64,000 nucleotides of DNA, taken from positions 744,001 through 808,000 of the forward strand of contig NZ_ATVQ01000001.1 of NCBI RefSeq assembly GCF_000420805.1, written 5' to 3'. The stretch is from Yaniella halotolerans DSM 15476 (GTDB lineage Bacteria; Actinomycetota; Actinomycetes; Actinomycetales; Micrococcaceae). Under the pieces are notes generated by a model that ran no database searches, was not told where the DNA came from, and saw only the letters and a program-made list of their open reading frames with translations. Positions 36,039 through 64,000 of the stretch are shown here, in pieces. The translations under genes were made by a program, and so were the position numbers. Numbering within the stretch: the first letter of the stretch is position 1; each line of letters starts with the position of its first letter.

Positions 36039-37496
36039 ATGGCGCTCTTAGATTCCGCTATATGGTCCGAAAAGATTTTCCTCAACGGCTGGCGTGCTGG
36101 CTCAGCTGAACCAACCGATATCCTGGAACCAGCCACCGGCAACGTCCTGGAACGCGCCGGGTTAGCAAGTGCCGACGACATTCACGAAGCCGCTCAAAAA
36201 GCTGCGGAGGCGCAGAAGGCTTGGGCTGCAACGAAACCAGCTGAACGGGCCGCTGTTATGCGTCGCGCCGGTCAAATATTTGAAGATCATGCTGCAGAAC
36301 TTACCGACTGGATTCAGCGGGAAACCGGCGCCATTCCGGCCAAAGCTGGCTTGGAAATCACGGTTGCCGCAAACGAATGCTACGACGCTTCGGCGCTCCC
36401 CCACCACTCGATGGGCGACGTGCTGACTTCCGATGAGGATCACTGGTCCTTCGCTCGACGTCTGCCGGTGGGTGTTGTCGGAGTGATTTCGCCGTTTAAC
36501 TTCCCGCTGATCCTGTCGATCCGCTCCGTCGTGCCCGCCCTGGCATTGGGTAATGCGGTGGTGCTGAAACCAGATCCACGCACCCCGGTCTCCGGCGGTG
36601 TCATGATCGCTCGCGCCCTGGAGGAAGCAGGCCTACCCGAAGGTGTCTTCCAGATGGTGCCCGGTGGCGCTGAAGCTGGCGCTGCCTTGACCGAAGCCCC
36701 GGAAATTGAAGTCGTCTCCTTCACCGGATCCACCGCCGCTGGCCGCAAGGTTGGCGAGGCTGCCGGCCGCAACCTCAAACGCGTACACCTGGAACTGGGT
36801 GGCAATAACGCAACCGTTGTCTTGCCCGGCGCCGACGTCGCGAAGGCTGCATCGGCCGGCGCATTCGGTTCGTTCCTCCACCAGGGTCAGGTATGTATGA
36901 CCACCGGACGGCACCTGGTGCACGAGTCGATTGCCGAAGAATATGTCGCAGCGCTGCAGCAGAAGGCTGAGCAGCTCCCACTGGGCGATCCCACCGAAGA
37001 GAATATCGCGATCGGTCCGGTGATCGATGAGGGCCAGCGCGATAATATCGACCGCATTGTGCAGCAGTCCAAGGATGGTGGGGCCAAGGTCGTTGCGGGC
37101 GGTAGCTATGACAAGCTGTTCTACTCCCCGACCGTCATTACCGATCTGACCGATGAGAGTCCGGCGTGGAGCCAGGAGATCTTTGGCCCGGTAGCCCCGG
37201 TTCGGACCTTCTCGACCATCGAGGAAGCCGCAGAGATTATCAACGCTTCCGAATACGGCCTGTCAGTTGGGTTGCTCGGCAATGTCGGTGAGGCCATGAA
37301 ATTGGCTGACATGGTGCGCTCTGGCAAGGTTCACATCAACGAGCAGACGGTGTCCGATGAATCCAACGCCCCGTTTGGTGGCTTCGGCAATTCCGGGAAC
37401 GGTTCGCGTATCGGTGGCTACACCACGAACATCGAGGCCTTCACCGAGGTGCAGTGGCTGACCATGCGACCAGAGATCGCCCCGTACCCCTTCTAA
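36039..37496 (+). CDS. Aryl-aldehyde dehydrogenase (benzaldehyde dehydrogenase type)
   Basis: 485-residue NAD(P)-dependent aldehyde dehydrogenase. Catalytic Glu in HLELGGNNATVVL, catalytic Cys in HQGQVCMTTGRHLV, cofactor pocket in SPFNFPLILSIRS and FTGSTAAGRKVGE. Overall it looks like the XylC/vanillin dehydrogenase group that oxidises benzaldehydes to benzoates. A Shine-Dalgarno AAAGGAGG ends six bases upstream. In this setting vanillin or syringaldehyde is a reasonable substrate (inference). It reads towards the hydrolase gene and ends at a hairpin. Confidence 0.85.
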   Translation: MALLDSAIWSEKIFLNGWRAGSAEPTDILEPATGNVLERAGLASADDIHEAAQKAAEAQKAWAATKPAERAAVMRRAGQIFEDHAAELTDWIQRETGAIPAKAGLEITVAANECYDASALPHHSMGDVLTSDEDHWSFARRLPVGVVGVISPFNFPLILSIRSVVPALALGNAVVLKPDPRTPVSGGVMIARALEEAGLPEGVFQMVPGGAEAGAALTEAPEIEVVSFTGSTAAGRKVGEAAGRNLKRVHLELGGNNATVVLPGADVAKAASAGAFGSFLHQGQVCMTTGRHLVHESIAEEYVAALQQKAEQLPLGDPTEENIAIGPVIDEGQRDNIDRIVQQSKDGGAKVVAGGSYDKLFYSPTVITDLTDESPAWSQEIFGPVAPVRTFSTIEEAAEIINASEYGLSVGLLGNVGEAMKLADMVRSGKVHINEQTVSDESNAPFGGFGNSGNGSRIGGYTTNIEAFTEVQWLTMRPEIAPYPF

Positions 37497-37515
37497 ACCC
37501 ACGCAAAAAGTCAAA

Positions 37516-37554
37516 GTTGTAGCCCGAGCGAGTTCAACTGGCCCGGGCTACAAC
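37516..37554. terminator. Hairpin between convergent genes
   Basis: GTTGTAGCCCG (37516-37526) pairs with CGGGCTACAAC (37544-37554). It lies just after the aldehyde dehydrogenase stop and just after the stop of the minus-strand serine hydrolase gene, so it can end both transcripts. Confidence 0.65.
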
Positions 37555-37561
37555 GTGATCT

Positions 37562-39223: not shown

Positions 39224-39446
39224 GTACTCCACGCAAAAGATTTTGAGACAACGTAGCCGGGCTGAGTATAGACATTTTAAAGTAACCAGCGTCTATGTTT
39301 GATTTTTCAAATATTACCTCAGGTCCCTGAATGTACACCCAAAACGGCCTGAAAACCCACTAGGGAGAACTTTATATCAGGTAGCCCTGATTAGCTACTG
39401 GTCAGTAGGTTTTGTTCAAGGATTTCTGCTTTAGCATGCGAGCACA

Positions 39447-39516: not shown

Positions 39517-40491
39517 TTATTCCTGGAGGAAGAGATCTTCTTCGGTTGGCGCATCCCCGATGAAGTCATAACGGTCAGCCAGTTCGACCATGTCCATGAG
39601 CTGGTCACGATCGAGCTCACCATCAAGGCGTTCCATGGTGAGGGCATCCGCATCTTCTTGTGAGATTTCGAGGAAGTCGACCAGTAATGCGCGGGAACCT
39701 TCTTGGTCTTCTTCAGCGGCGGCCAACGCTTCGGTCATGGCGTCAGCGAAGTCGGCGGCCATTTCAGGATCATCGGCGGCCAGTTCACCGGAGGTGAAGG
39801 TAATCATAGTGGCCATGCCAGGGTCATTTTCCTGGAAAGAGTACCCAACGAGTTGGTTTTCCTCATCGGCGAGCAGGCCAGACAGGAATGGTTCTGGAAT
39901 CCACACCGCGTCTGTATTACCGCGCTCAAGCTGTGCCGGCATATCAGGGAAGGCGATTTCAGAGAATTCAAGAGCCTGCGGATCAGCACCGTCTTGTTCA
40001 GCAAGGTTCATCACGGTCAAATCTCCGAGGGTATTCAGAGCGTTGACCGCGGTGGTTTTGCCCTCAAGATCTGCCCAGGTTTCAATGTCTGAGTCTGCTC
40101 GAGTGACGACGCCTGCGACGTCTTCACCTTCTTCGAGCGAGTTCGAGTACCCGGCCACAATCTTCATGTCCAGGCCCTGGTCAACCGCGGTGACTACGGA
40201 CAGCGGGTTACCGACACCGAAGTCCATCTGACCGGCAGACACAGCCGGTAGCATCGCGGCACCGGCGGTGGAAACCTCATAGTCCACATCGAAACCGTGT
40301 TCTTCGAAGATGCCGTTTTCAATGCCGTAGGCAACGCCCACGCTCGGAGCAATGGACAGCACCCCAACGGTTACTTCGCGGAGCTCTTCGCCATCACCGG
40401 ACGCTTCATCGCCTCCACCACCACCGCAGGCAGTCAGCAAGAGGGCGGATGCAGCGGCAGTCGCGAAGCCCGTCATCAATTTGTTTTTCAT
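39517..40491 (-). CDS. ABC transporter substrate-binding lipoprotein (NMT1/SsuA type)
   Basis: 324 residues with a lipoprotein signal (ALLLTACGGG, acylated Cys near residue 22) and an NMT1/SsuA-like two-lobe domain (VTVGVLSIAPSVGVAYG, GIFEEHGFDVDYE, MDFGVGNPLS). AGGAGAA lies upstream of the ATG at 40491. It is a clear paralogue of the binding protein at 57730, sharing GIFEEHG, (A/S)DLEG and AFPDM segments, but has no permease or ATPase beside it, so it may feed the importer at 58905-61644. It follows the hydroxycinnamate-type genes, suggesting an aromatic or side-chain acid ligand (inference). Confidence 0.87.
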   Translation of the reverse strand: MKNKLMTGFATAAASALLLTACGGGGGDEASGDGEELREVTVGVLSIAPSVGVAYGIENGIFEEHGFDVDYEVSTAGAAMLPAVSAGQMDFGVGNPLSVVTAVDQGLDMKIVAGYSNSLEEGEDVAGVVTRADSDIETWADLEGKTTAVNALNTLGDLTVMNLAEQDGADPQALEFSEIAFPDMPAQLERGNTDAVWIPEPFLSGLLADEENQLVGYSFQENDPGMATMITFTSGELAADDPEMAADFADAMTEALAAAEEDQEGSRALLVDFLEISQEDADALTMERLDGELDRDQLMDMVELADRYDFIGDAPTEEDLFLQE

Positions 40492-40750
40492 TGGTTCTCC
40501 TGGTGTGAGTGTTTCCAGGTGCACCATAGGCACGATCGGAAACAGTGTGAGATGAGAGGATCGGTTATTGAGTTTTGATCTAGATATTCATCAATTGAGA
40601 TCCACAATAGACCACATTCCAACACATTGGAAGGGTTTATGCGATAAAATTGTTAGGTTCATCACATCAGAATTTGGGCGAGCAAAAGGGCCCGAAGAAA
40701 GCACGGAAACGGCTCTCCGCAGGCCCTAATGCGGTAGGTCTAGAGCAGTC

Positions 40751-41221
40751 TTATGCGTAGAAGCGTGAGAGGAACGTTGCTACAACTGCTGGGCGCTCCT
40801 CGCCTTCGATTTCGATGGTCGAGTTGGTCACCAGGTGCAGGCCGTTGCCTTTGACTTCCTGTACTTCAGTGACTTCGGCGTGCATGCGGATACGCGAGCC
40901 AACTTTGACCGGGCTCGTAAAGCGAACTTTGTCGAGGCCGTAGTTGACCTTGGTTGAGACGCCAGTGACGTCAAAGAGTTCCGACCAGAATGGGATAATC
41001 AACGAAAGCGTCAGAAAACCGTGGGCGATCGGAGCGCCGAAGGGGCCTTCTTTCGCACGTTCAACGTCAGTGTGGATCCACTGGTGGTCGCTCGTTGCGT
41101 CAGCGAAGGTGTTGATCATCTCTTGTGTGACGGTCGTCCACTCGGTGGCACCCAGATCAGTGCCGGCGAGGTCAGCAACTTGGTCAAATTCAACGACGGT
41201 ACGGGCAGTAGTTTCAGTCAT
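40751..41221 (-). CDS. MaoC-family enoyl-CoA hydratase
   Basis: 156-residue hot-dog fold hydratase. The hydratase motif is present as ATSDHQWIHTD with the Asp/His catalytic pair, followed by GPFGAPIAHGFLTLSL. In this cluster it would add water to a cinnamoyl-CoA-type thioester, the role assigned to CouM in Rhodococcus. It is the last gene of a minus-strand group with acyl-CoA dehydrogenase (29 bases apart), hydrolase and SDR. Confidence 0.88.
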   Translation of the reverse strand: MTETTARTVVEFDQVADLAGTDLGATEWTTVTQEMINTFADATSDHQWIHTDVERAKEGPFGAPIAHGFLTLSLIIPFWSELFDVTGVSTKVNYGLDKVRFTSPVKVGSRIRMHAEVTEVQEVKGNGLHLVTNSTIEIEGEERPAVVATFLSRFYA

Positions 41222-41250
41222 TGGGTTTTCCTTATCTGTCTTGAATGGTT

Positions 41251-42429
41251 TTAGACGAACGCGCTTTGGCCGGTAATGGCGCGGCCAACAATCAGCGCGT
41301 TAATTTCGTGGGTGCCTTCGTAGGAGTACACCGCTTCGGCATCGGCGTGGAAGCGGGCAACATCCGTGTCTAAGGTGATGCCATTGCCACCGCACACTTC
41401 ACGAGCCAAAGCAACGGTTTCGCGGAGCTTTGCTGCGGTGAACATTTTGGCCAGTGCCGAGTTCTCGTCTTTATAGACGCCGGCATCTTGCTGCTCGGTG
41501 AGCTGCATAGCCATGGCGACCGATGCGGTGACATTGCCCAACATGGTGGCCAGCTTTTCTTGTATCAGCTGGAATCCGGCGATGGGTTTACCGAACTGTT
41601 CGCGACTCGTGGTGTAGCGGACGGCTGCTTCATAAGCACCAGCCATCGCTCCGGCTGCGATCCAGGAAACATCCGAACGCAACAGCCGTAGACATTTGGC
41701 CACATCTCGGAACGAGTTGATGTTCAGTAGGCGGGCGTCGGCGGATACCTGAACATTGTCGTAGGTGATGTCCGCGTTCTGCATGATCCGCAGCGATGCC
41801 TTGCGCTCGATTTTTTCCAGTGTAACGCCTTGGGCATCGCGAGGCACCAGAAACGCTTTGACTTGATTATCGGCGGTATCGCGCGCAAACGTGCACAGCA
41901 CATCCGCCTGGAACGCACCGCCAATCCAGCGCTTGGCACCGTTAATGGTCCACGAACCGTCGTTATTCTGTGAGGCCGATGTTTGGAGGCCACCTGCGAC
42001 ATCTGAACCGTTATCTGGCTCGGTGAGCGCAAAAACGCCGAGTAGCTCGTAGTTCACAATTTGTGGATCGAGTTCTGCGACCTGCGCTGCACTGCCGCCC
42101 TGTTTCACAACGGTGCGAAACAAACCGGCTTGCGCGTTGAAGAAAGTGGCGACGTTGGTATCGCAACGTGCCAGTTCAAAGGTTCGCATGGATTCAAAGA
42201 CACCGCGAACACTCTCCCCGGCCTCTTGAAGCGCCGGCGGATTCATCAGGCGTAACGATTGCAGCGGCTCGATGATTTCTTCAGGCAGGCGATCTTCGTG
42301 CCACGCATCGTTGAGGTATGGGTAAACCTGATCGGTCAGCGTGGCGCGCAGCTCGTCCAGCACGGTTTGTTCAGCAGCCGTCAAACGGTCCGAAAAACCA
42401 TAGGCATCCCAGGATGACACGTTGTTCAT
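41251..42429 (-). CDS. Acyl-CoA dehydrogenase (glutaryl-CoA dehydrogenase-like)
   Basis: 392-residue FAD enzyme that oxidises acyl-CoA to enoyl-CoA. The catalytic Glu sits in SYEGTHEINALIVGRAITG near the end, the FAD-contact FALTEPDNGSDVAGG and the REQFGKPIAGFQLIQEKLA segments are present. It overlaps the hydrolase gene by four bases. The phd cluster of Corynebacterium has an equivalent dehydrogenase for saturated phenylpropionates, which fits here. Confidence 0.9.
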   Translation of the reverse strand: MNNVSSWDAYGFSDRLTAAEQTVLDELRATLTDQVYPYLNDAWHEDRLPEEIIEPLQSLRLMNPPALQEAGESVRGVFESMRTFELARCDTNVATFFNAQAGLFRTVVKQGGSAAQVAELDPQIVNYELLGVFALTEPDNGSDVAGGLQTSASQNNDGSWTINGAKRWIGGAFQADVLCTFARDTADNQVKAFLVPRDAQGVTLEKIERKASLRIMQNADITYDNVQVSADARLLNINSFRDVAKCLRLLRSDVSWIAAGAMAGAYEAAVRYTTSREQFGKPIAGFQLIQEKLATMLGNVTASVAMAMQLTEQQDAGVYKDENSALAKMFTAAKLRETVALAREVCGGNGITLDTDVARFHADAEAVYSYEGTHEINALIVGRAITGQSAFV

Positions 42430-43328
42430 GCCGAATCACCTTGGTCCAGGCCAAGGAGTTTCACGGCGTTTTCTTTGAGGATCAACGGGCGAACTTCGTC
42501 TTTAATCGGCAGATCTTCAAACGCGGCCATCCATTTTGGTGGCGGGATCAGCGGGAAGTCGGTGCCAAAGAGCACTTTATGCTTCAGCATGTTATTCGAC
42601 TGACGCACCAGCGACTCCGGGAAGTACTTGGGCGACCAACCTGACAGGTCGATATATACGTTCGACTTGTGGGTTGCAATCGAGTTGGCCTCGTCTTGCC
42701 AGGGTACTGATGGGTGCGCCATGATGATCTGGAGGTTTGGGAAATCTGCGGCAACTTCGTCCAGCAACAGTGGATTGGAGTACCCCAGTTTGATTCCGGC
42801 ACCGCCCGGCAGTCCGGCGCCCATGCCGTTTTGTCCGGTGTGGGAGATGATGGGGAGACCAATTTCTTCCAATGCTTCCCACAGCGGGTAAAACTCGCGG
42901 TCAGACGGGTTGAAGCCCTGTACCGACGGGTGGAATTTGAACCCTTGAACGCCGAGCTCATCTGCCTGACGTTTAGCCTCTTCAATGGCTGCCGCACCGG
43001 TTCGCGGATCAACGGAGCCGAATGGGAGCAGCACATCGTTATTGCGTGCCGCACCAGCTACAAGATCGTCGATCGAGTTTGGCATGTGGCCGTCAAACTG
43101 TGTGCGAGCGTCCAAGGTAAAGACGACCGCTGCCATTCCCAGATCGCGGTAGATACCGGCGATCTTGTCGATGGAAGGCGTGCGATCTTCGGACTTGAAG
43201 TACTTGGCCGACGCTTCGTAGAACTTTTCTGGCATGGGTTTGTGCCCCTGCTCATCCAGTTCTATGTGAACGTGGACATCTACCGCGGAGATCGCGGAGA
43301 CATCAATATTTGATACGTACTTTGCCAC
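42426..43328 (-). CDS. Amidohydrolase-family TIM-barrel hydrolase (CouO/PhdC-like)
   Basis: About 300 residues of the amidohydrolase_2 superfamily: the metal-binding HxH in VDVHVHIELDE, a strand-5 His in IISHTGQNG, IMAHPSVPW, and Asp in FGTDFPLIPP. In the cou (Rhodococcus) and phd (Corynebacterium) clusters such a hydrolase splits 3-oxo-3-arylpropanoyl-CoA. I start at the GTG at 43328, which has AGGTGG five bases upstream; a GTG at 43337, directly after the SDR stop, is the alternative. Order SDR, hydrolase, dehydrogenase, MaoC on one strand indicates one operon. Confidence 0.85.
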   Translation of the reverse strand: MAKYVSNIDVSAISAVDVHVHIELDEQGHKPMPEKFYEASAKYFKSEDRTPSIDKIAGIYRDLGMAAVVFTLDARTQFDGHMPNSIDDLVAGAARNNDVLLPFGSVDPRTGAAAIEEAKRQADELGVQGFKFHPSVQGFNPSDREFYPLWEALEEIGLPIISHTGQNGMGAGLPGGAGIKLGYSNPLLLDEVAADFPNLQIIMAHPSVPWQDEANSIATHKSNVYIDLSGWSPKYFPESLVRQSNNMLKHKVLFGTDFPLIPPPKWMAAFEDLPIKDEVRPLILKENAVKLLGLDQGDSA

Positions 43329-43337
43329 GGATACCAC

Positions 43338-44261
43338 CTAGGCCTTTGGCTGCAGGTCTGCCGGAAGTTCTGGCATTTTTTCGCCGACTTCTTGCAGGTT
43401 GCCTTCAACGATCGAGCGGCCCTTGTTCTGCAGTGCTTCGTAGGTCCATCCGCCTTCGAGGTATTCGGTGGCAACTGGCTCTGGGTGACCCCAAACCTGG
43501 AGACGGTCGCCACCAACGCCGATGGCCTGACCGGTGATGTTGGCTGCGTCGTCGGATGACAGGAAAGCAACGAGTCCGGCGACGTCGGCTGCTGTACCGA
43601 AGCCAAGCTCCTTGCGGAAGAAATCTGGCATGGCTTCGCCGGCTTTATCTGCTTCAATCGCAGCTGAGAAGAACGGCACGGTTTCAGTCATGGCAGTCGC
43701 GGCCACAGGAATAATGGCGTTGACGGTTACACCTGCGCGTTTCATTTCCATTGCCCAGGTGCGCACCATACCGACGATGCCGGCTTTTGCTGCGGCATAG
43801 TTGGTCTGACCAAAGTTGCCGCGCTGGCCGGTTGGCGAACCGATGGTGACGATGCGACCTTTAACTTCATTGTTCTTGAAGTAGTCAAAGGCTGCGCGAA
43901 CGCAGGTAAAGGTCCCGCGCAGATGCACGTTGATCACTTGGTCGAAATCGTCATCTGACATTTTCAGCAGGCTGCGGTCCCGCAGAATTCCGGCATTGTT
44001 CACCAAAATATCGAGGGTGCCAAAGTTTTCAACAGCAGCGTTGACGAGCTTTTCGGCTGTTTCGGTCGAGCCGACGGCCGCGGTGACGCCAACGGCAGTG
44101 CCGCCTGCGCCGGTAATAGATTCAACGGCCTGGTTCGTGACTTCTTCGTTGACATCGTTGATCACGACTTTGGCGCCCTGACGGGCCAGTTCTTGCGCGT
44201 AAGCTAGACCCAGGCCAGCGCCCGATCCGGTAACGATTGCTACTTTGCCATTCAGTGTCAT
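43338..44261 (-). CDS. Short-chain dehydrogenase/reductase (3-hydroxyacyl-CoA type)
   Basis: 307 residues: NAD-binding VTGSGAGLGLAYAQ, NNAGILRDRS, catalytic Ser in TIGSPTGQRG and YAAAK. The roughly 40-residue C-terminal extension is unlike plain FabG and resembles the hydroxyacyl-CoA dehydrogenases of steroid and peroxisomal type. In the cluster it would oxidise the 3-hydroxyacyl-CoA made by MaoC. First gene of the operon, divergent from the MarR gene, with an imperfect palindrome in the 129-base gap. Confidence 0.9.
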   Translation of the reverse strand: MTLNGKVAIVTGSGAGLGLAYAQELARQGAKVVINDVNEEVTNQAVESITGAGGTAVGVTAAVGSTETAEKLVNAAVENFGTLDILVNNAGILRDRSLLKMSDDDFDQVINVHLRGTFTCVRAAFDYFKNNEVKGRIVTIGSPTGQRGNFGQTNYAAAKAGIVGMVRTWAMEMKRAGVTVNAIIPVAATAMTETVPFFSAAIEADKAGEAMPDFFRKELGFGTAADVAGLVAFLSSDDAANITGQAIGVGGDRLQVWGHPEPVATEYLEGGWTYEALQNKGRSIVEGNLQEVGEKMPELPADLQPKA

Positions 44262-44855: not shown

Positions 44856-44876
44856 ACGTTTCCACGCCCTACGGGC

Positions 44877-44912: not shown

Positions 44913-46475
44913 TTAAGCGTTCCCGTACAGCTCACGCAGTTGTGGCTTGCGAACCTTGCCCGAGGCCGTTCGTGGCAGGTCGTCGACAAAGACCACGGAT
45001 TTCGGAATCTTGTAGCGCGCGAGTTTCCCATCGAGATAGGACAGCACGTCCGCCTCGGTCAGCTCGTGGCCTTCGCGGACCACGATAGCTGCACGTGGCA
45101 CTTCGCCCCATTTTTCATCCGATACCCCGAAGACCGCGACGAAGGCGATGGCATCCATCTGCGACAACTCTTGTTCGATCTGCGCCGGGTAGATGTTCTC
45201 CCCGCCAGAGATAATCATGTCTTTCATGCGGTCGGAGATAAACAGGAAGCCGTCGTCGTCCATGTAGCCCATGTCACCACTGCGGAACCAGGTGCCGCCG
45301 TCATCGGTGATAAAGGACGATTCATTCGCTTCTGGTCGATTCCAGTAACCCGAAATGACGTTGGGGCCCTGAATTTGGACTTCGCCAACTTCGTGGGCTG
45401 ACAGTTCTTTGCCGTCGAGATCAGCAACACGAACGAGCGTGTGCATTTGTGGCAGACCAGCCGAGCCCATCTTTTCGCGTGAGTAGCGCCCAGGCAGTGT
45501 GGTGGCTCCAGGCGATGTTTCCGTCATGCCATACCCCATAGTGAAGCTGAGGCCGCGATCCTCATACGCCTCCAGGATGCGCAGCGGCACAGCCGAACCA
45601 CCGCAGGTCAGGCTGTTCAGGGAGGAAATGTCTGTCTGCTCCCATGCTGGGCCCTCCGCCAGGAGTTGATACGTGGTGGGCACCCCGGAAATGAAGGTCG
45701 CCTTGTGCTGCTCAATGAGCTCCAGCGCTCGACCAGGATGGAAGCGCGGCTCAAGGATGAGATGTCCGCCTTTAATGAAGGTTGGCAGTACGCCCATGCC
45801 AAGTGCCGCGACGTGGAACATCGGCGAGATCATTAGCGAGACCTCGTCGCTGCTGATGTTCATATCAGAAATAACGTTGATGGCATTCCAAGTCAAATTG
45901 CCGTGGGTCAACATCGCACCCTTTGGATTGCCAGTGGTTCCCGAGGTGTAGAGAATAATGGCGAGATCATCGAGGTCTACGTTGGTGCGTGGACGCTCCG
46001 GACTGGCGTCGGCCAACACCTCGGAGTAATGCTCGGATGGCAGGGTCAAGCGACCTTCTTCGGCTGGAACGCGGGCGCCATCGTCAACGAAGATTACGCG
46101 CTCCACCTCGGTATTTTCCACGCCCGCTACAGCTAGCGGTTCCATGGTTATCGAGGCGATGAGCATTTGCGCTCCGGCGTCCTCCAAGTGGAACGTCACT
46201 TCTGGTCCCGCCAGGCGAGTATTGAGCGGCACGAATACCGCGCCGATGCTCCCCAGTGCGAACAGGGTTTCGAGGAACTCCACTGAGTTCTCACCGAGGT
46301 AGGCAACTCGGTCGCCCTGCTTGACCCCACGATCCGTCAGTGCGTTTGCCAACTGATTAATACGCTGATCAAACTGTTCATAGGTCAGATTCAAGTCGCC
46401 GGCAGTGACCGCCATGCGACCTGCCGACTTGATCCTGCGTCGATGAATCCAATCGCCTATACCGTGATTCGTCAT
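44913..46475 (-). CDS. AMP-forming CoA ligase (hydroxycinnamate CoA ligase-like)
   Basis: 520-residue adenylate-forming ligase. Motifs: ILYTSGTTGNPKGAMLTHG, GYGMTETSPGATTLPG, SGDMGYMDDDGFLFISDR and the C-terminal Lys in RTASGKVRKPQLREL. It would start the pathway by forming the cinnamoyl-CoA thioester, the role of CouL or PhdA, and it is the only CoA ligase in the cluster. Upstream (46548-46578) is a 13-base perfect inverted repeat. It has its own transcription unit. Confidence 0.88.
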   Translation of the reverse strand: MTNHGIGDWIHRRRIKSAGRMAVTAGDLNLTYEQFDQRINQLANALTDRGVKQGDRVAYLGENSVEFLETLFALGSIGAVFVPLNTRLAGPEVTFHLEDAGAQMLIASITMEPLAVAGVENTEVERVIFVDDGARVPAEEGRLTLPSEHYSEVLADASPERPRTNVDLDDLAIILYTSGTTGNPKGAMLTHGNLTWNAINVISDMNISSDEVSLMISPMFHVAALGMGVLPTFIKGGHLILEPRFHPGRALELIEQHKATFISGVPTTYQLLAEGPAWEQTDISSLNSLTCGGSAVPLRILEAYEDRGLSFTMGYGMTETSPGATTLPGRYSREKMGSAGLPQMHTLVRVADLDGKELSAHEVGEVQIQGPNVISGYWNRPEANESSFITDDGGTWFRSGDMGYMDDDGFLFISDRMKDMIISGGENIYPAQIEQELSQMDAIAFVAVFGVSDEKWGEVPRAAIVVREGHELTEADVLSYLDGKLARYKIPKSVVFVDDLPRTASGKVRKPQLRELYGNA

Positions 46476-48973: not shown

Positions 48974-49055
48974 GCTGCTATCCTTCGCTTCGTAGTGCAT
49001 CGCGCAATCTTTTGCAGCTTAGCAACATCTGTTATTCAAGTCACCGTATGCGGTG

Positions 49056-51790: not shown

Positions 51791-51818
51791 TGCGTTTCCT
51801 TTGCTCTGCCGAATTGTT

Positions 51819-53783: not shown

Positions 53784-54373
53784 CGGCCTGTTGATTCGAA
53801 GCTGTCGAGCAGTTCGAGCCCCTGTGTGGCCCAGGTGATTTCTGCCCGGGCTTGCTGCAGGATGCCTTCATAGGCGAACACCTTGAACTGCGTGATCTTG
53901 GTGTGCTCAGCTGGCGGATATTGCGCGAGCCTGCTCTGGTGAATGGCTGAGCTACCTTCGTGGAGTTCATCGATCTGGAACTGTACATCGTCGACCACCT
54001 GTTGGTGGTGTTCGAGGTGGTCTTGGAGGCACCGTCGGGCTTCGTCGTCGGTTGCAAATTCGAAATAGGCTGACCGCAGTCGAACCTCACTGCGTTCGGG
54101 ACGATATGCAACGGGCTTGGCGTACCATTCGCGCAGATGAGCGATACCGGCATCGGTAATCGCATACTCGGTTTTCGTGGCACCCTTTGAACCCCAGGGC
54201 ACCGGGTAACCGGTGAGCAGCTGTTCGGCTTGCATCTTCTTGAGCTCGGGATAAATTTGCGAATCCGGTGCGTGCCACAAAAACCCCACCGATGAGTGGA
54301 AATTTTTGGCGATGTCATAGCCGGTGCTGGGGCCGGAGGACAACAAGGTAAGCAGTGCAGATCGTAGACTCAT
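53780..54373 (-). CDS. PadR-family regulator
   Basis: 197 residues: N-terminal PadR winged helix (RSALLTLLSSGPSTGYDIAKNF, PDSQIYPELKKMQAEQLL, ATKTEYAITDAGI) and a C-terminal all-helical Vir_act_alpha_C dimer domain (ARRCLQDHLEHHQQVVDDVQFQID). I use the ATG at 54373; no Shine-Dalgarno is present, and the close upstream -10-like TACACT suggests a leaderless transcript. PadR proteins often answer to phenolic acids, although the family is broader. Convergent with the GntR gene; the two stops share a CTAG. Confidence 0.85.
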   Translation of the reverse strand: MSLRSALLTLLSSGPSTGYDIAKNFHSSVGFLWHAPDSQIYPELKKMQAEQLLTGYPVPWGSKGATKTEYAITDAGIAHLREWYAKPVAYRPERSEVRLRSAYFEFATDDEARRCLQDHLEHHQQVVDDVQFQIDELHEGSSAIHQSRLAQYPPAEHTKITQFKVFAYEGILQQARAEITWATQGLELLDSFESTGR

Positions 54374-54419
54374 GGTGACCGTAGTGTAGTAGAAACTCTC
54401 GTTTGGATCAGTTATCAGT

Positions 54420-54870
54420 GTGCAGAATCCGCGATTCATTGCCGCTCAGCAGTTTGACTTCGATGCTTTGCGCGAAGATTTGAGAGCCGTTCTCGAGTCA
54501 GCAGCGCGCCTCAACGACAAAGTCGCAGACGCTACGCTCGTCGGTGGAAGCGCGGCTAGTCTATAGGCAAACCGCCGCTCATCCTACGACCATGATGTCC
54601 TAAAAGACCCGGCAAAATCATCCTCGGCCAACTCGGCGACATAGAAGCCGGCGTACGTCAGATGATCCGCACTGTGCCGCTCGAGGTCCTGGAAGTGCAA
54701 CTACCGAGTGGCAATACCGTGCGCGTAGCAACCCAACAAAAAGCGCTTCGGATCAAAGCCTATCTAGCGGTCAAGCGGAACCAAGTGCGCGACTACCTCG
54801 ATATTGCCGCGCTTTCTCACAGATACGGAGGCGGCAACGGTGAATCACCTCAACCGCCCTAAAGACATCA
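54420..54870 (+). pseudogene. Degraded AbiEii-type nucleotidyltransferase toxin
   Basis: Remnants of a nucleotidyltransferase toxin gene. From a GTG at 54420 the frame gives an N-terminal part ending ATLVGGSAASL, then TAG at 54564-54566, then NRRSSYDHDVL. A shift of frame, probably with a deletion, lies between 54596 and 54611. The second frame gives GDIEAGVRQMIRTVPLEVLEV and LRIKAYLAVKRNQVRDYLDIAAL (54617-54830), which is the characteristic C-terminal nucleotidyltransferase helix. The C-terminus past 54862 is also shortened. These are the AbiEii/AbiGii toxin hallmarks. The gene is not functional. Confidence 0.7.
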
Positions 54871-55189: not shown

Positions 55190-56596
<1,407 letters not shown>

Positions 56597-56642: not shown

Positions 56643-57506
56643 TTAGAACTGTTTGGTGAAGTCTTGAGCCCACTCGGCGGTTTTTGCCATGCCACCGAAA
56701 GTGTAGAAGTGCACACCGACTCTGCCGGTGTAGTTGGTTGATTCAGTTTCAGCTGCGAGGTCTTGCAAGAACTTATCTGGTCCGGCACTGCCCATCAGGT
56801 TGGTGAGTGAGAAACCATATTTTTTGACTATGCCCGCCGACGTCCCCACACCGAAACGCTTGGCGTAGTTCAATAGGCGACGAATGCCTGCCGGGCCCGG
56901 CGTGCCAATGCGCACGGGGGCGCTAATATTCTTAACCGCCAACTCGTCAAGCCACTTGGCCACCGGCGCAGTGTCGAAACCGAACTGCGTTAGGATGACT
57001 GCGCTCATGTCCTGCTCGGCTAGGTACTCGACCTTGCCACTGAGTTCGCGGGAGAGCACCTCTTCGGAAATGTCTGGGTGACCTTCCGGGTAACCTGCGA
57101 TTGACACATCTTTGACACCGAATTCTGCGAAGACCCCGGATTGCAGCATTTCCAGCGACGATCCATATGGGCCAAGCGGTTCTGCTGGGTCCCCGCCTAC
57201 GGCAAAGACGTGCTGCGCCGCGTCGACGTTGGCCAAGGCCTGGAGGAATTCTTTGAGTTCGTCTTCACTGTGGATGCGACGAGCCGAGATGTGTGGAACC
57301 GGAATGAACCCGAGCTCTTTGACGGCTTTTGCAGCCGCCACACGCATCTCGAGGTCTTCGTTCCCCAGGAAGGTGACATTGACTCGCGATCCTTGCGGAA
57401 TCAGTGGCGCCGCCTCACGCAGAGCATCCACATCTTTACCGGTCATTTCAAGAGAAAAGTCTTGCATCAACGCACGGACACCCGCGGTTGTAGCTGATTG
57501 GGACAT
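56643..57506 (-). CDS. metF: Methylenetetrahydrofolate reductase
   Basis: 287-residue FAD-dependent MTHFR. The conserved VFAVGGDPAEPLGPYGSS, SIAGYPEGHPD and LTQFGFD segments line the FAD and folate sites. GAGG lies about six bases upstream of the ATG at 57506. It is paired with the O-demethylase gene, so its probable job here is to convert 5-methyl-THF back to methylene-THF instead of serving methionine synthesis. Confidence 0.92.
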   Translation of the reverse strand: MSQSATTAGVRALMQDFSLEMTGKDVDALREAAPLIPQGSRVNVTFLGNEDLEMRVAAAKAVKELGFIPVPHISARRIHSEDELKEFLQALANVDAAQHVFAVGGDPAEPLGPYGSSLEMLQSGVFAEFGVKDVSIAGYPEGHPDISEEVLSRELSGKVEYLAEQDMSAVILTQFGFDTAPVAKWLDELAVKNISAPVRIGTPGPAGIRRLLNYAKRFGVGTSAGIVKKYGFSLTNLMGSAGPDKFLQDLAAETESTNYTGRVGVHFYTFGGMAKTAEWAQDFTKQF

Positions 57507-57729: not shown

Positions 57730-58725
57730 CTACGAATCGTCGCGAACCAGGTCATTCACATCAATGACCTCGTCGATCAGACCGGTTTGCTCCGACAGCT
57801 CGATAATTCGCTCGGTTGATTCCACATTGATCTCTTGCGGGAATCGAGGCATGTTCAGGCTATCGATGATCTCTGGGTCAATTTCCGAATACTCGGGCAG
57901 GATTTCCTTAGCCTCTTCGGGGTTATCTTCGGCATACTGCTGAGACTCTTTCATCGCGGCGACAAACGAATCAACAAGTTCAGGATCTTCTTCGATCCTG
58001 TCCGTTGAGGCAAAGTAGCCAGCGATCATCAGATCTTCGATTGGCTCAGCATAGGGCGAGTAGATTTCGCGAGCTCCGGCATCTTTTGCCAGGGTCGCAA
58101 ACGGCTCAACCGCCATGATGGCATCGACATTGCCCGACTCCAGCTGACCACCCATATCCGGGAAGGCAACTTCAACCAGGTTCATCGCTTCCGCGTCTCC
58201 GCCAGCCTGCGTTAGCCCTTCCTTCAAGACCGTGTCGTTGATGTTGTTGAGAGTGTTGACCGCAACGCTCTGCCCTTCGAGGTCTGCGATAGATTCCGCA
58301 TCCGAATCTTCAGGCACGAGCAAGGACGAGAAGTCCTCGCCGACATTGCCCGTGGTCTGCGGGCCCGGCGCCACAAGCTGCAGCGGCAGGCCTTGGGATT
58401 GACCAATCACCAGCGAGGTGATGTTCGAGAACCCGAAATCAAAGTCGCCGGACTGCACCGCTGGGATAATGGCCGCACCACCCTGAGCCAGCGTGAGATC
58501 AAGCTCCAGGCCGTGTTCTTCAAAGATGCCCTCTTGGGCACCCAAGTAGATGGGCGCTACGTCAACAATGGGAATGACGCCGACCGAAACTTGGGTCAGC
58601 GAACCGTCTTGCGCCGCATCGTCACCTTCGGCGGGACCTTCTTCTCCCCCACCACAGGACGTGAGTACAAGCAGACCCGCAGCTGCGGCCGCTGCGACAC
58701 TGCCTCGAATACCGAGTGTTTTCAT
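57730..58725 (-). CDS. ABC transporter substrate-binding lipoprotein (SsuA/TauA type)
   Basis: 331-residue lipoprotein: signal ending VLTSCGGG and an NMT1/SsuA-like domain (VSVGVIPIVDVAPIYLGAQEG, FDFGFSN, VAFPDMGGQLESGNVDAI). AAGGAG lies upstream of the ATG at 58725. With the ATPase and two permease genes upstream it forms a full SsuABC/TauABC-type importer. The neighbourhood suggests an aromatic acid such as vanillate or syringate. A terminator-like hairpin precedes it, so it has its own transcript in part, which would allow more binding protein than membrane parts. Confidence 0.9.
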   Translation of the reverse strand: MKTLGIRGSVAAAAAAGLLVLTSCGGGEEGPAEGDDAAQDGSLTQVSVGVIPIVDVAPIYLGAQEGIFEEHGLELDLTLAQGGAAIIPAVQSGDFDFGFSNITSLVIGQSQGLPLQLVAPGPQTTGNVGEDFSSLLVPEDSDAESIADLEGQSVAVNTLNNINDTVLKEGLTQAGGDAEAMNLVEVAFPDMGGQLESGNVDAIMAVEPFATLAKDAGAREIYSPYAEPIEDLMIAGYFASTDRIEEDPELVDSFVAAMKESQQYAEDNPEEAKEILPEYSEIDPEIIDSLNMPRFPQEINVESTERIIELSEQTGLIDEVIDVNDLVRDDS

Positions 58726-58857
58726 GATGAGCTCCTTGCAGGCGTGAGGCTTCACGTGAATTTAGTGAAGCAAGTCACAACGGTATGCGGATTGCATGCG
58801 ATCGTCAATAGTTTTTTGCCTTAACGCTTATCAGTGTATTTTTTGTGTTAACCCAAT

Positions 58858-58904: not shown

Positions 58905-59810
58905 TTAGGCTTGGGCTTTGGCCGCATCTGGCCGGAAGCCTTCTTTGGCCAGTTGGATTTGCTCGTAGACGTGGTGGCGTAGTTCGCTGAAGCGCTGTGA
59001 TGAGCGGGTTTCGAGCTGATCGCGCTCGTCTGGCAGGTCGATTTTGATGTCCTGCTGGATCACGGTGGGTGACGAGGACAGGATGACAACCCTGGACCCC
59101 AGGTACACGGATTCATCGATATCGTGGGTCACGAACAAGATCGTCACACCCAGTTGGCGCCACACGCGACGGACCAGGTCTTCAAGGTCGGCACGGGTTT
59201 GGGCGTCGACAGCGGCGAAGGGTTCGTCCATGAGCAGCACTTCTGGCTGGTAGGCCACGGCGCGGGCAATCGCAACACGTTGCTGCATACCACCCGATAG
59301 CTGCCACGGATATGACCGCGGCACGTGATCCAAGCCCACAGCCTCGAGTGCGTCATCAACGACTTTGTCGCGTTGGGCTTTGTCCATGCCTTGGACCTTC
59401 AACGGCAGCTCCACGTTTTCGCGAACGCGCATCCAGGGATATAGCGAACGACCATACTCCTGGAAGACCACCGCCATGTTCTTTGGTGGGCTGGTCACGA
59501 GCTTGCCGCCCAGCTTCACCTCGCCAGCAGTGGGTTCAAGGAGTCCTGAGATGGCTTTGAGCAGGGTGGTTTTACCCGAGCCCGATGGCCCCACCAGGCA
59601 GGTGAGTTCGCCCTTGGGTAGGTCAAAGGTGAGGTTCCGAACGGCTTCAATACCGCCGCCGTCGGTCTGATAGACCTTTTTGAGATTGCGTACCGACAGC
59701 AAGGCTTCACCGTCAGGCAGGGTGAGCCCCACCGGTAGTTGCCCGTCCGGTGTGTCGGCCATACTGCCCTGGTTGATCACCGGGTTGTGTTCTGCAGGTT
59801 GAGTCGTCAT
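58905..59810 (-). CDS. ABC transporter ATPase (SsuB/TauB type)
   Basis: 301 residues. Walker A GPSGSGKTTLLKAISG, Q loop VVFQEYGRSLYPWM, signature LSGGMQQRVAIARA, Walker B VLLMDEPFAAVDAQTRADL, and H loop FVTHDIDESV are all complete. I start at the ATG at 59810 (AAGGA nine bases ahead); earlier in-frame sequence is not conserved. It powers the two neighbouring permeases. Confidence 0.93.
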   Translation of the reverse strand: MTTQPAEHNPVINQGSMADTPDGQLPVGLTLPDGEALLSVRNLKKVYQTDGGGIEAVRNLTFDLPKGELTCLVGPSGSGKTTLLKAISGLLEPTAGEVKLGGKLVTSPPKNMAVVFQEYGRSLYPWMRVRENVELPLKVQGMDKAQRDKVVDDALEAVGLDHVPRSYPWQLSGGMQQRVAIARAVAYQPEVLLMDEPFAAVDAQTRADLEDLVRRVWRQLGVTILFVTHDIDESVYLGSRVVILSSSPTVIQQDIKIDLPDERDQLETRSSQRFSELRHHVYEQIQLAKEGFRPDAAKAQA

Positions 59811-59848
59811 AGCAAGATATCCTTCAAAAAATTGTGTGAGCGTTGTTG

Positions 59849-60622
59849 CTAGCCGGCGTTTTCCATCTCGCGCTGTCCGTGGTACCACTTCAGGACACTG
59901 CGCTCGACGATCTGGAAGATGAACGACATAATGACACCGATCAGACCCAGCACCACGATGCCCGACCACATTTCAGGAATGGCGAAGGACCGCTGGAACT
60001 GGATAATGGTGTAGCCCAGCCCTGCCGAGGAGGCGAACATTTCCGAGATCACCATCAGAATCAGGGCAATGGACAACGACTGGCGAATGCCCGCCATAAT
60101 TTGCGGCATCGCCGATGGCAAGATCAGATACCGGATCCGGGCGATGCCATCAATGCGATAGGTATGCGAGGTATCGGACAGTACTTCGTCCATTGAACGC
60201 ACACCTTCGATGGTATTGAGCAGAATCGGCCAGACGGCACCCAGCACGATGACGGCAATTTTCATGTCATCGCCAATACCGATCAGCAGCATAAACACTG
60301 GAATCAACACGGTCGGCGGGATGGCGCGGAAAAATTCCATGGTTGGTTCCATGAGCTGACGCAGCCACCGGAATGACCCGACCAACAAGCCCACGACAAT
60401 ACCGATCACAATGGACAACACCAGGCCGGCAATCAACCGGGCCACCGATGGGAATACATCGGATTGCATCCGGTTCCAGGTCCAGGTTGAACTAAATGCA
60501 TTGGACATTTGCTCCAGGGTCGGAACAAAGAAGCTCGTGGACTGAGAAGACCACACGATCCACGCTACGATCAGCAGTGCTGGCAGCGCGATGATATGGA
60601 AGAAATCTTTGAGGAAACGCAT
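59849..60622 (-). CDS. ABC transporter permease (SsuC/TauC type), second
   Basis: 257 residues with six membrane helices and the EAA-type loop RIDGIARIRYLILPSAMPQIMAGIRQ. Its ATG overlaps the stop of the other permease gene by one base (TAATG), so the two permeases are translated together and probably make a heterodimer. Confidence 0.92.
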   Translation of the reverse strand: MRFLKDFFHIIALPALLIVAWIVWSSQSTSFFVPTLEQMSNAFSSTWTWNRMQSDVFPSVARLIAGLVLSIVIGIVVGLLVGSFRWLRQLMEPTMEFFRAIPPTVLIPVFMLLIGIGDDMKIAVIVLGAVWPILLNTIEGVRSMDEVLSDTSHTYRIDGIARIRYLILPSAMPQIMAGIRQSLSIALILMVISEMFASSAGLGYTIIQFQRSFAIPEMWSGIVVLGLIGVIMSFIFQIVERSVLKWYHGQREMENAG

Positions 60623-61791: not shown

Positions 61792-62646
61792 TTACGCTTC
61801 ATCAAAGTACTCCATGGAACTTCGGGAGGAGTTGATAAGCATGCGGAACCGAGCACCCGGCAGCGCATGCGGGTGATCAGGATCGATATACGCGGCCCTC
61901 AACTGCTGGCTCACACCGTGCGCCGCGTGACGCAATAAGTCCACGATTCGCACACTGACAGGCTCGTTCGCTGGAACGACCACACCGAGGCCGGCAAGCA
62001 CCTCCCCTTGCGGACCATAAATTGGCGCAGCCATGCCTCGGGCGTCCAGGTGCACGAAACCATCAGCCACCGCATAGCCGTTCGCACGCACCTTCTCAAC
62101 CTGCGCAAGGACCTGCTCCACAGTACGCGGCGTCCGGCGGGTATAAGCATGAATCCCTGCGGCCACAAGCTCTTGAATAAAGTCTGGCGATTTCCCTGAA
62201 AGCAATACATGGCCGATAGCAGAGGCCCCTAGACTGATACGCCCGCCTACGATGGTGGCATTCACAACGGCGTCAACCCTCGAAGCGCGATCCAAATACA
62301 CGACGTCATGACCACCGTCCACCCCAAGCTGCGTATGCTGCCGCACCTGATTCTGAACAAGCTGCACCATAGGCGCAGCGATCTCTCGCAAGCCCATAGC
62401 GCGTGGAGTGCGTGCCGCCAACTCCCATAAACGCAGACCGAGCTGATACGACCTGTCGGGCAGTCGCTCCAACAGCCGCTGTTGTTCCAACTCGCCCACG
62501 AGGCGATGCACTGTCGTCATTGGCAAGCCACACCGTTTGGCGATCTCGGAGAGCGACAAGAATGCGGTGCCAGCCTCAAACGCATCCAGGATCAACAAGT
62601 GTCGCTCAAGAACTGTAATCGGCGTCCCGACATTCTGCCTTGGCAT
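61792..62646 (-). CDS. IclR-family regulator
   Basis: 284 residues: N-terminal winged helix (FLSLSEIAKRCGLPMTTVHRLVGELEQQRLLERL) and the C-terminal GAF-like ligand domain (LGVDGGHDVVYLDRASRVDAV, GRISLGASAIGHVLLSG). Many IclR proteins control aromatic acid catabolism (PcaU, PobR). It is divergent from the VanB-type reductase and P450 genes and lies at the head of the importer genes. Confidence 0.9.
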   Translation of the reverse strand: MPRQNVGTPITVLERHLLILDAFEAGTAFLSLSEIAKRCGLPMTTVHRLVGELEQQRLLERLPDRSYQLGLRLWELAARTPRAMGLREIAAPMVQLVQNQVRQHTQLGVDGGHDVVYLDRASRVDAVVNATIVGGRISLGASAIGHVLLSGKSPDFIQELVAAGIHAYTRRTPRTVEQVLAQVEKVRANGYAVADGFVHLDARGMAAPIYGPQGEVLAGLGVVVPANEPVSVRIVDLLRHAAHGVSQQLRAAYIDPDHPHALPGARFRMLINSSRSSMEYFDEA

Positions 62647-62679: not shown

Positions 62680-62752
62680 GCTCTACATCCTACGTGACGA
62701 CTGTCACAATAACTTTCTATGTGCCCCACTTCGTCATTTCGTTGGAGGAATC

Positions 62753-63715
62753 ATGACTGCAGTAGACAACGCATCGAACAGTGACCAACTCGTAGTGACA
62801 CAACGCTTGGATCGCTCTACGAGCGTCACTGAATTTGTACTCGAACGGCGCGATCGTCGGCGCCTTCCCGACTGGGCCCCGGGCGCTCACATTGACGTCG
62901 TCCTACCGAGCGGAAAAATTCGGCAATATTCTCTGTGCGGAGATCGCTGGGCCCCACACCAGTATCGGATTGCGGTACAACGAGACGATCTCGGCGGAGG
63001 GGGCTCAGTCGAGCTCCATACCGAATTGAAGCCAGGCGACACCATCAGCTTCGGCGGACCCCGCAACAATTTCCGCCTCGCACCGGCCCAGAGCTATCGC
63101 TTTATCGCCGGTGGCATCGGTATTAGCGCTCTATTGCCCATGATCGCACAAGCTAATTTGCTCGGTCTTGAATGGCAGCTGTTGTACCTCGGGCGCAACC
63201 TCGAACGTATGGCCTACCAAGAACTGCAAGAACGCTACCCCGAACGTGTCACCGTGCACGCCAGCCAAAATGCTGGCCGAATCTCAATTCGAGAGTGGCT
63301 CGGCTCCCCGCCGGACGACACCATGGTCTACGCCTGTGGGCCTGAATCGCTGCTGGAAGCTTTGCCGGAGGCGTGCTCCGATCTTCCTGAAACGACCCTG
63401 CGAACCGAACGGTTCACCAACACGATGGCCGATGCCATCGTCAGTTCTGAACCCTATGAAATTAAGCTGCAGCGCAGTGGTCGCGTCGTAGAAGCGCCGG
63501 GCAACACCTCAGTCGTAGACGTCCTGGCCAATGCGGGCGTTGATGTTATCACGTCGTGCTCCCAAGGCGTTTGTGGCACCTGTGAAGTCGACGTCCTTGC
63601 CGGAGAAATTGACCACCGCGACGCAATTCTTGATGACGACGAACGTGCCACGAACACGTGCATGTTCCCGTGTGTTTCACGTTCCCTCTCAGAACGTCTT
63701 GTACTGGACCTCTAA
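62753..63715 (+). CDS. VanB-type oxidoreductase (FAD, NAD and [2Fe-2S])
   Basis: 320 residues in the phthalate-dioxygenase-reductase order: flavin domain with RQYSLCGDRW (near residues 58-70), NAD domain with YACGPESLLEALPEA, and a C-terminal plant-type ferredoxin with CSQGVCGTCEVDVL and a final Cys in TCMFPC. It transfers electrons from NAD(P)H to a partner oxygenase. The cytochrome P450 gene starts 20 bases later on the same strand, so the P450 is the likely partner, probably forming an O-demethylase pair. Confidence 0.92.
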   Translation: MTAVDNASNSDQLVVTQRLDRSTSVTEFVLERRDRRRLPDWAPGAHIDVVLPSGKIRQYSLCGDRWAPHQYRIAVQRDDLGGGGSVELHTELKPGDTISFGGPRNNFRLAPAQSYRFIAGGIGISALLPMIAQANLLGLEWQLLYLGRNLERMAYQELQERYPERVTVHASQNAGRISIREWLGSPPDDTMVYACGPESLLEALPEACSDLPETTLRTERFTNTMADAIVSSEPYEIKLQRSGRVVEAPGNTSVVDVLANAGVDVITSCSQGVCGTCEVDVLAGEIDHRDAILDDDERATNTCMFPCVSRSLSERLVLDL

Positions 63716-63735
63716 GACCCGATTGGAAGAATTTC

Positions 63736-64000
63736 ATGACTACAAACGCTGTTTCCAAATGCCCGTTCACGGGTGCACCAGACCTGGCCCCCGCCTCACA
63801 CGAACAGCAGGTAGACGTTCCAGTCCTGCTTGAAGACCCCTTTGAGGAATCCAACTTGGCCGACCCGCATCCAATGCACAAACGTCTCCGCGATGCAGAT
63901 GCCGACGTTGTCTATCTTCCTGCTTACGACATCTATGCGGTGGCGCGCTACGAGGCAGTACTCGACACGTTAGAAAACTGGCAGGATTACTCCAGTGCCG
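63736..64000 (+). CDS. Cytochrome P450, N-terminal part (CYP199-like)
   Basis: The first 88 codons are visible; the gene leaves the right edge. The segment DPFEESNLADPHPMHKRLRD, then VVYLPAYDIYAVARYEAVLDTL matches the opening of CYP199-type P450s that demethylate 4-methoxybenzoate and similar methoxyaryl acids. The heme Cys is beyond the window. GGAAGA lies upstream of the ATG. With the VanB-type reductase it would give oxidative O-demethylation that releases formaldehyde, alongside the THF-dependent demethylase of the same locus. Confidence 0.8.
   Translation, partial: MTTNAVSKCPFTGAPDLAPASHEQQVDVPVLLEDPFEESNLADPHPMHKRLRDADADVVYLPAYDIYAVARYEAVLDTLENWQDYSSA

Follow-up and report, generated by a model that had tools for sequence, protein, structure and literature searches.

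A type I extradiol dioxygenase proposed to open the gallate or 3-O-methylgallate ring in a methoxyaromatic-acid catabolic locus of Yaniella halotolerans

Among the closest described systems for bacterial methoxyaromatic breakdown is the syringate/vanillate pathway of Sphingobium sp. SYK-6 (LigM, MetF, LigH, DesA, DesB, DesZ, LigAB and LigJ/K/U), in which gallate, protocatechuate and 3-O-methylgallate (3MGA) are opened by three related type II enzymes, DesB, LigAB and DesZ, according to the parts of PMC3962378 drawn on here. In the corresponding parts of the AromaDeg survey (PMC4250580), gallate and methylgallate dioxygenases are placed in the LigB superfamily. We analysed a stretch of 64,000 nucleotides of Yaniella halotolerans DSM 15476 (hereafter the window; G000:C1:744001-808000, G+C 57%, in a genome of 2.78 Mb), which carries a block of catabolic genes including EDO1, a type I extradiol dioxygenase of the VOC fold. 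On the strength of genome content and conserved gene context, EDO1 likely acts on gallate or 3MGA and takes the place of the type II dioxygenase in a methoxyaromatic-acid catabolic locus.

LigM, MetF, LigJ, LigK and LigU are common to SYK-6 and the Yaniella block; unlike SYK-6, the Yaniella genome is without a match to PF02900 and has PcaGH for protocatechuate. Tautomerase and aldolase are also alike in the gal pathway (galA, B, C, D) of Pseudomonas putida KT2440, and at many EDO1 loci a PIG-L protein stands in the place of GalB, which we take to be a PIG-L-type hydratase; the difference lies in the ring opener, GalA being of the LigB-superfamily type and EDO1 of VOC fold. In the protocatechuate 4,5-cleavage cluster of Pseudarthrobacter phenanthrenivorans Sphe3, LigJ and LigK are 69% and 67% identical to those of the window (LigJ being counted from 51790), whereas the type II PcaA, LigC and LigI found there are without a match in the Yaniella genome. 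Sphe3 PcaA also turns gallate into 4-oxalomesaconate (OMA), as stated in the part of PMC8431788 drawn on here. The ring opener and the lower-pathway genes of the window are the following.

49056..50057, minus strand: EDO1, type I (VOC) extradiol dioxygenase, proposed gallate/3-O-methylgallate ring cleaver (fold, neighbourhood, Tyr202)
50067..50750, minus strand: LigK/GalC, 4-carboxy-4-hydroxy-2-oxoadipate (CHA) aldolase (TIGR02798 366.8 bits, cut-off 304.5)
50768..51874, minus strand: LigJ, OMA hydratase, true start probably near 51790 (505.8 bits to 2gwg, 461.8 to 6dxq)
51819..52967, minus strand: LigU/GalD, OMA tautomerase (NF033377 457.9 bits, cut-off 440)

The OMA tautomerase, OMA hydratase and CHA aldolase of a gallate-type lower pathway are all encoded in the window, and LigJ aligned almost end to end with OMA hydratases of known structure. 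The predicted identities of LigU, LigJ and LigK, as well as that of LigM, are firm at the level of sequence families. One known source of OMA is protocatechuate, by way of type II ring cleavage followed by LigC and LigI. The two other known sources are gallate (by DesB or LigAB) and 3MGA (by DesZ or LigAB, via 2-pyrone-4,6-dicarboxylate (PDC) and LigI), as given in the part of PMC10765951 drawn on here. No type II (LigB-family, PF02900) dioxygenase was matched in the Yaniella genome, the search leaving aside cupin-type extradiol families, and neither LigC nor LigI gave a match there with the Sphe3 proteins as queries (E 1e-10). The same queries retrieved LigC (82-93%) and LigI (83-90%) in 7 of 18 other genomes. 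Because LigB-family, LigC and LigI matches are all missing from the genome, the known feeders of LigU/J/K are all unmatched. As PcaGH is encoded (over curated cut-offs) and these three are not matched, protocatechuate most likely leaves via 3,4-cleavage, and the LigU/J/K branch most likely serves gallate-type substrates.

The original prediction had proposed a lower route of the kind best known in sphingomonads. Its gallate-type LigU/J/K set stands; its sphingomonad-like key step does not, the ring opener in the block being a type I VOC enzyme and not DesB, LigAB or DesZ. The predicted course from methoxyphenylpropanoids through vanillate and 3MGA or gallate to pyruvate and oxaloacetate likewise fits the genes, except in the vanillate branch, which probably exits by PcaGH; that ferulate and sinapate are substrates we only infer.

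EDO1, which the original prediction had overlooked, is the extradiol enzyme of the block and lies 9 bp from LigK. In public records, genes of its type carry the label catechol 2,3-dioxygenase or VOC family protein, and EDO1 scores 277.2 bits to the catechol 2,3-dioxygenase equivalog TIGR03211, below the cut-off of 320.2. The AlphaFold model of EDO1 (mean predicted local distance difference test score 81, below 50 at residues 247-249, 251-255, 299-310, 313-320 and 329-333) matched the folds of AphC 7q2a and 3lm4 (TM 0.85-0.86), XylE and homoprotocatechuate 2,3-dioxygenase (HPCD), with 32-34% identity to the nearest structures of the fold search. The two-domain VOC fold of type I enzymes is accompanied by their 2-His-1-Glu ligands: H156 and E270 are kept in 100 of 100 clade sequences and H219 in 99 of 100. 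Likewise H251 and Y260 are kept in all 100; they correspond in position to XylE H246 and Y255. In type I enzymes the second-sphere His acts as acid-base catalyst. At this column (XylE H199, set via alignment of the paralog L058 to 1mpy) all 100 clade sequences have Tyr202 and all 16 paralog sequences, drawn from 15 loci, have His; EDO1 is thereby without the second-sphere His of catechol 2,3-dioxygenase and HPCD. EDO1 shares fold and 2-His-1-Glu ligands with the type I catechol dioxygenases (AphC 7q2a, 3lm4, XylE 1mpy and HPCD), and differs from them in its low identity and in the replacement of His by Tyr. The catalytic His positions of DesB and of the type I enzyme BphC are compared in the legend of Figure S3 in PMC3962378.

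The gene neighbourhood of EDO1 was compared across 95 clade loci, 15 from the sample of the order and the best 80 of at least 569 confirmed named GTDB loci, all 80 with actinobacterial titles; neighbours were called within 8 kb at 40% identity for LigU and LigJ and 35% for LigK and GalB-like proteins, at 40% coverage. LigU, LigK and an OMA hydratase (LigJ or GalB-like) accompany EDO1 at 77 of the 95 loci (13 of 15 order and 64 of 80 named loci), against 0 of 20 paralogous type I dioxygenase loci (Fisher p 3e-12, kinship ignored). At the best 80 named loci the individual neighbours are LigU (68), LigK (69), GalB-like (57), LigJ (11), LigM (26) and the importer ATPase (12, at 50% identity or more). 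Among the 20 paralog loci, LigK and LigJ occur together in one (L155), LigM and MetF in one (L167) and a DesA-like gene in two. The EDO1 clade is separated from the paralogs by a branch with a Shimodaira-Hasegawa-like approximate likelihood-ratio support of 99, and the hydratase beside EDO1 switches between LigJ and the unrelated GalB-like PIG-L protein at least 7 times, a minimum over 84 labelled rows of a quick tree for which the program warned of long paralog branches. Within the order, the EDO1 clade was found in 16 of 297 genomes (51-100% identity, the window's own included); an OMA tautomerase of at least 428 bits also occurs in 16 of 297 (next best 316), 14 of which carry the EDO1 clade.

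The same association extends to other gene orders and replicons. In Streptomyces (L118) the order is GntR-GalB-LigK-LigU-EDO1-MFS transporter, and among the five plasmid regions examined from 83 records (four annotated, alphaproteobacterial; the fifth, from Nonomuraea, unannotated) the plasmids of Agrobacterium vitis and Thioclava hold GalB-like, EDO1, LigK and LigU in a row, i.e., two of the four annotated loci. Since its usual partners share OMA, the natural substrates of EDO1 would be gallate or 3MGA. With somewhat less assurance than for the assignment of EDO1 itself, we favour the view that gallate dioxygenases evolved independently a second time, in this VOC clade, which is large and actinobacterial, has relatives on alphaproteobacterial plasmids and carries Tyr for the second-sphere His. 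Searches of open-licence papers in PubMed Central turned up no description of a type I gallate dioxygenase, subscription journals and preprints lying outside that scope. What would be new is that a familiar pathway has its key step carried out by an unrelated enzyme. As a separate observation, 23 of 80 named and 8 of 15 order loci have a gene for a DUF1932 protein (6-phosphogluconate-dehydrogenase-like) no more than 8 kb from EDO1 (e.g., L045, L050, L060 and L062), and no match to it was found in the window.

Several observations weigh against the assignment of EDO1 as gallate or 3MGA dioxygenase. Its nearest solved relative, 9wgj, was named a catechol 1,2-dioxygenase by the depositors and has Tyr at the position of residue 202, so that Tyr202 is no proof of gallate specificity. 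The full OMA set is lacking at 18 of the 95 loci, in some cases because the available sequence is short; among the 12 named loci that lack LigU, four have less than 10 kb of sequence. On the plasmids of Roseomonas (L059) and Methylobacterium (L061), LigK is nearby and no LigU is annotated within 10 kb. A type II gene (50% to Sphe3 PcaA) lies in the EDO1 cluster of L050, the only PcaA-like match among the 95 loci, and a type II (LigB-like class III) gene lies beside EDO1 in Roseomonas; because of these two, EDO1 is not always the sole extradiol enzyme. In G254 and G210 the tautomerase occurs and EDO1 does not; both genomes have strong LigB, LigC and LigI matches, so that their tautomerase may belong to a route for protocatechuate. 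Conversely, EDO1 is present and a tautomerase match missing in G135 and G177. The Yaniella genome itself has another type I gene, at C1:542943, whose product shares 32% identity with EDO1; the OMA genes looked for were all missing within 8 kb of it. Its surroundings (L058, C1:535000-552000) hold an FAD hydroxylase and a fumarylacetoacetate-hydrolase-family gene, and L058 is probably a separate meta-cleavage cluster.

Three other readings of EDO1 were weighed against this background. Were EDO1 a protocatechuate 4,5-dioxygenase, the locus would be a vanillate-only route via 4-carboxy-2-hydroxymuconate-6-semialdehyde (CHMS) and PDC. Protocatechuate is indeed also a LigM product, LigI-like genes (60-70% to Sphe3 LigI) occur in 5 of the 95 clade loci, and in Roseomonas the LigB-like gene adjoins EDO1. 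However, CHMS requires LigC and PDC requires LigI, both unmatched in the Yaniella genome, LigC is found in none of the 95 loci, and PcaGH offers protocatechuate another exit. Moreover, four genomes of genus g20 have a separate type II-LigC-LigI cluster: G028, G243 and G173 carry it on a different contig from EDO1, and G145 about 12 kb away on the same one. We regard this reading as very improbable, and a place for EDO1 in a protocatechuate 4,5 route of Yaniella was rejected because LigC, LigI and the LigB family gave no match. Hardly more probable is the action of EDO1 on another catechol, such as an alkylcatechol, a methoxycatechol or pyrogallol, with LigU/K/J adjacent through a loose aromatic-island association. 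The fold neighbours of EDO1 are alkylcatechol and biphenyl-diol enzymes, its database label is catechol 2,3-dioxygenase, and gallate is not among the type I substrates listed in the portion of the AromaDeg survey (PMC4250580) drawn on here; against this, the pairing with OMA enzymes is repeated across the clade and missing from the paralogs, and it involves two unrelated hydratases.

A narrower question, which overlaps with our preferred assignment, is that of gallate versus 3MGA: EDO1 may mainly cleave 3MGA and release methanol or PDC, like DesZ of SYK-6, with gallate as a minor substrate. Two contexts favour 3MGA there: in G272 a DesA-like demethylase and MetF adjoin EDO1 (77% identical), in G222 its neighbours are MetF and a LigM/DesA relative that scores 504.6 bits against the LigM model, and neither genome has a LigM over the cut-off. 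The occurrence of LigI without LigC in the five loci mentioned above would fit PDC formed from 3MGA or gallate without LigC, and the formation of PDC from 3MGA by DesZ or LigAB is described in the cited part of PMC10765951. On the other side, a LigM- or DesA-like gene (at least 40% identity) is found within 8 kb of EDO1 at only 27 of 80 named loci (and at 6 of 15 order loci), a better fit to plant-derived gallate, and in the window itself LigM stands beside EDO1. We consider this sub-case possible, though rather unlikely. The window also holds genes with predicted roles in O-demethylation.

55190..56584, minus strand: LigM, tetrahydrofolate (THF)-dependent vanillate/3-O-methylgallate O-demethylase (NF047885 817.6 bits, cut-off 580)
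56643..57506, minus strand: MetF, 5,10-methylene-THF reductase of the LigM-linked kind (287.9 bits to 7xg9; next structure 23.6 bits)
62753..63715, plus strand: FNR and C-terminal 2Fe-2S reductase, likely P450 partner (PF00111 49 bits)
63658..65022 (window numbering; passes the window end at 64000), plus strand: CYP199-like P450 (488.9 bits to CYP199 9g9q)

LigM aligned with the solved LigM 5x1i over its length (671.9 bits); 5x1i and the MetF structure 7xg9 are presumably SYK-6 proteins. The family identity of LigM is firm, and it is predicted to transfer methyl groups from vanillate or 3MGA to THF. A formate-THF ligase (PF01268, 798.5 bits) is encoded elsewhere in the genome, as is a second demethylase (C1:496977-498374), whose best match is DesA (NF047633, 624.7 bits, below the cut-off of 800) and which also stays below the LigM cut-off (565.6 bits against 580). 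The structure search revealed near full-length similarity of the P450 to CYP199 proteins far above that to other P450s, with 397.6 bits to CYP199A4 (4dnz) and 133.8 bits to the first chain outside the leading group. CYP199A4 and its family are para-methoxybenzoate O-demethylases. The P450 of the window resembles CYP199A4 over nearly its full length; it differs in that the adjacent electron-transfer gene encodes a fused FNR-2Fe-2S protein. The group of reductase, P450 and IclR recurs in L045, L079 and L106. The original prediction held the presence of THF-dependent demethylation in an actinobacterium to be notable, a weak claim and one we rejected as a novelty: within the order, 15 of 297 genomes have a LigM above the family cut-off, and metagenome-assembled genomes (MAGs) of actinobacteria have already been reported to encode putative enzymes like LigM or DesA (PMC9296663). 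Actinobacterial LigM is uncommon, neither remarkable nor new.

Further observations concern one-carbon (C1) chemistry elsewhere. The GCV_T folate-binding domain gave 11 matches in the Yaniella genome, 10 of them over the cut-off and several in frames of more than 800 residues, which suggests other THF-dependent demethylation systems. One region (L012, C4:195000-204000) holds two GcvT-like proteins nearest to dimethylsulfoniopropionate demethylase and trimethylamine N-oxide demethylase, respectively, both below cut-off, along with a DmmA-family protein over the cut-off and a reductase; it looks like a methylamine-type demethylation locus. Across the clade, a MetE-like methionine-synthase-domain protein (NF005085 subfamily, scanned in the L047 copy at 8258-9364) was detected by sequence clustering in 13 of 100 loci and could dispose of methyl groups from O-demethylation.

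The remaining genes of the window are those for transport, regulation and side-chain degradation, together with less closely associated members.

36039..37496, plus strand: aldehyde dehydrogenase, loosely associated (357.2 bits to 4-hydroxybenzaldehyde dehydrogenase 9jw2)
37562-39232, minus strand: beta-lactamase-like gene, between the aldehyde dehydrogenase and the block
39517..40533, minus strand: second NMT1-type solute-binding protein (PF09084 81.9 bits)
40751..41221, minus strand: MaoC-type hydratase (PF01575 99.3 bits)
41251..42429, minus strand: acyl-CoA dehydrogenase (ACAD; PF00441 105 bits)
42426..43337, minus strand: amidohydrolase-2 family hydrolase, side-chain set (PF04909 173.3 bits)
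43338..44261, minus strand: short-chain dehydrogenase (SDR), side-chain set (PF00106 171.9 bits)
44913..46475, minus strand: AMP-forming CoA ligase, with a likely phdA/couL-like role (PF00501 296 bits)
46604..49000, minus strand: FdhF/YdeP-type molybdoenzyme, probable accessory (TIGR01701 878.9 bits, cut-off 582.15)
53780..54439, minus strand: PadR-family regulator (PF03551 45.1 bits)
57730..58755, minus strand: NMT1-type solute-binding protein of the importer (PF09084 110.9 bits)
58905..59969, minus strand: ABC importer ATPase, start probably further in (PF00005 121.8 bits)
59849-60622 and 60622-61644, minus strand: two ABC importer permeases (PF00528 84.6 and 79.5 bits)
61792..62646, minus strand: IclR-family regulator (PF01614 78.3 bits)

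Read along the minus strand from 61.6 to 39.5 kb, the block runs through two permeases, ATPase, NMT1-type binding protein, MetF, LigM and PadR, and continues with LigU, LigJ, LigK, EDO1, FdhF/YdeP, CoA ligase, SDR, amidohydrolase, ACAD, MaoC and the second binding protein. Among the 19 minus-strand genes between 39517 and 62646, 15 of the 18 gaps are shorter than 230 bp and the other three measure 651-812 bp. The order MetF-LigM-PadR-LigU-LigJ-LigK-dioxygenase-...-CoA ligase-SDR-amidohydrolase-ACAD is kept in L064 and L065, the two nearest relatives found, and because of this recurrence the grouping is not due to chance. Domain and family profile scans detected every family that the original prediction had named, each at or beside its predicted place, and its view of an actinobacterial origin was borne out by the nearest named GTDB relatives of EDO1, from a Micrococcaceae MAG (94% identity) and Candidatus Yaniella excrementavium (89%).

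Phenylpropanoid side-chain systems of other actinobacteria include the phd genes of Corynebacterium glutamicum and the cou genes of Rhodococcus jostii. Their defining make-up, which we take to be CoA ligase, ACAD, hydratase, SDR and amidohydrolase, is complete by family at 40751-46475; the likeness is one of family make-up. The amidohydrolase at 42426-43337 was rejected as LigI, Sphe3 LigI being without a match in the window at E 1e-3 and the PDB matches being weak. The FdhF/YdeP-type molybdoenzyme, a block member that had been passed over earlier, was rejected as a core part: it has no match in the L064 or L065 stretches, where other genes fill its slot, and a role in oxidizing formate from the C1 unit is a guess. 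What stands at this place, between EDO1 and the CoA ligase, differs from one relative to the next, with YdiJ/GlcD/GlpC-like oxidoreductase genes in L064 (9079-12074) and a DesA-like demethylase with a LysR regulator in L065 (8344-10798). The aldehyde dehydrogenase reaches the NCBIfam cut-off of none of the 25 families listed out of 45, and its membership in the locus is circumstantial because the beta-lactamase-like gene parts it from the block. Further away, at 29813-35872, lies a frame of 2019 residues with a single calcineurin-like phosphoesterase domain.

Taken in sequence, these genes would allow the following course. The ABC importer may take up methoxylated aromatic acids; by family, the CoA ligase, ACAD, MaoC hydratase, SDR and amidohydrolase would shorten three-carbon side chains, and the CYP199-like P450 may strip para-methoxy groups. 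Strong homology suggests that LigM would pass meta-O-methyl groups to THF, with MetF and formate-THF ligase recycling the C1 unit. Vanillate-derived protocatechuate would exit via PcaGH elsewhere in the genome, and syringate (after the DesA-like enzyme elsewhere) and 3MGA would converge on gallate. EDO1 would then open the ring of gallate or 3MGA to yield OMA, standing in for the unrelated type II DesB/GalA, and LigU, LigJ and LigK would turn OMA into pyruvate and oxaloacetate.

If the proposed role of EDO1 is true, evolution arrived twice, from unrelated folds, at the key step in the degradation of gallate and syringate, and gallate/syringate pathways that seem broken in standard annotation would be completed, probably in hundreds of genomes, a scale that is our conjecture. 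Many actinobacteria, Streptomyces and Microbacterium included, would become recognisable as gallate or S-lignin degraders via a gene labelled catechol 2,3-dioxygenase. For lignin engineering, the dioxygenase together with LigU, LigK and LigJ or GalB would then provide a compact Gram-positive gene set. The clade would also constitute a natural test of the function of the second-sphere His in type I dioxygenases, and its Tyr site, we conjecture, may be tuned to a ring with a third hydroxyl.

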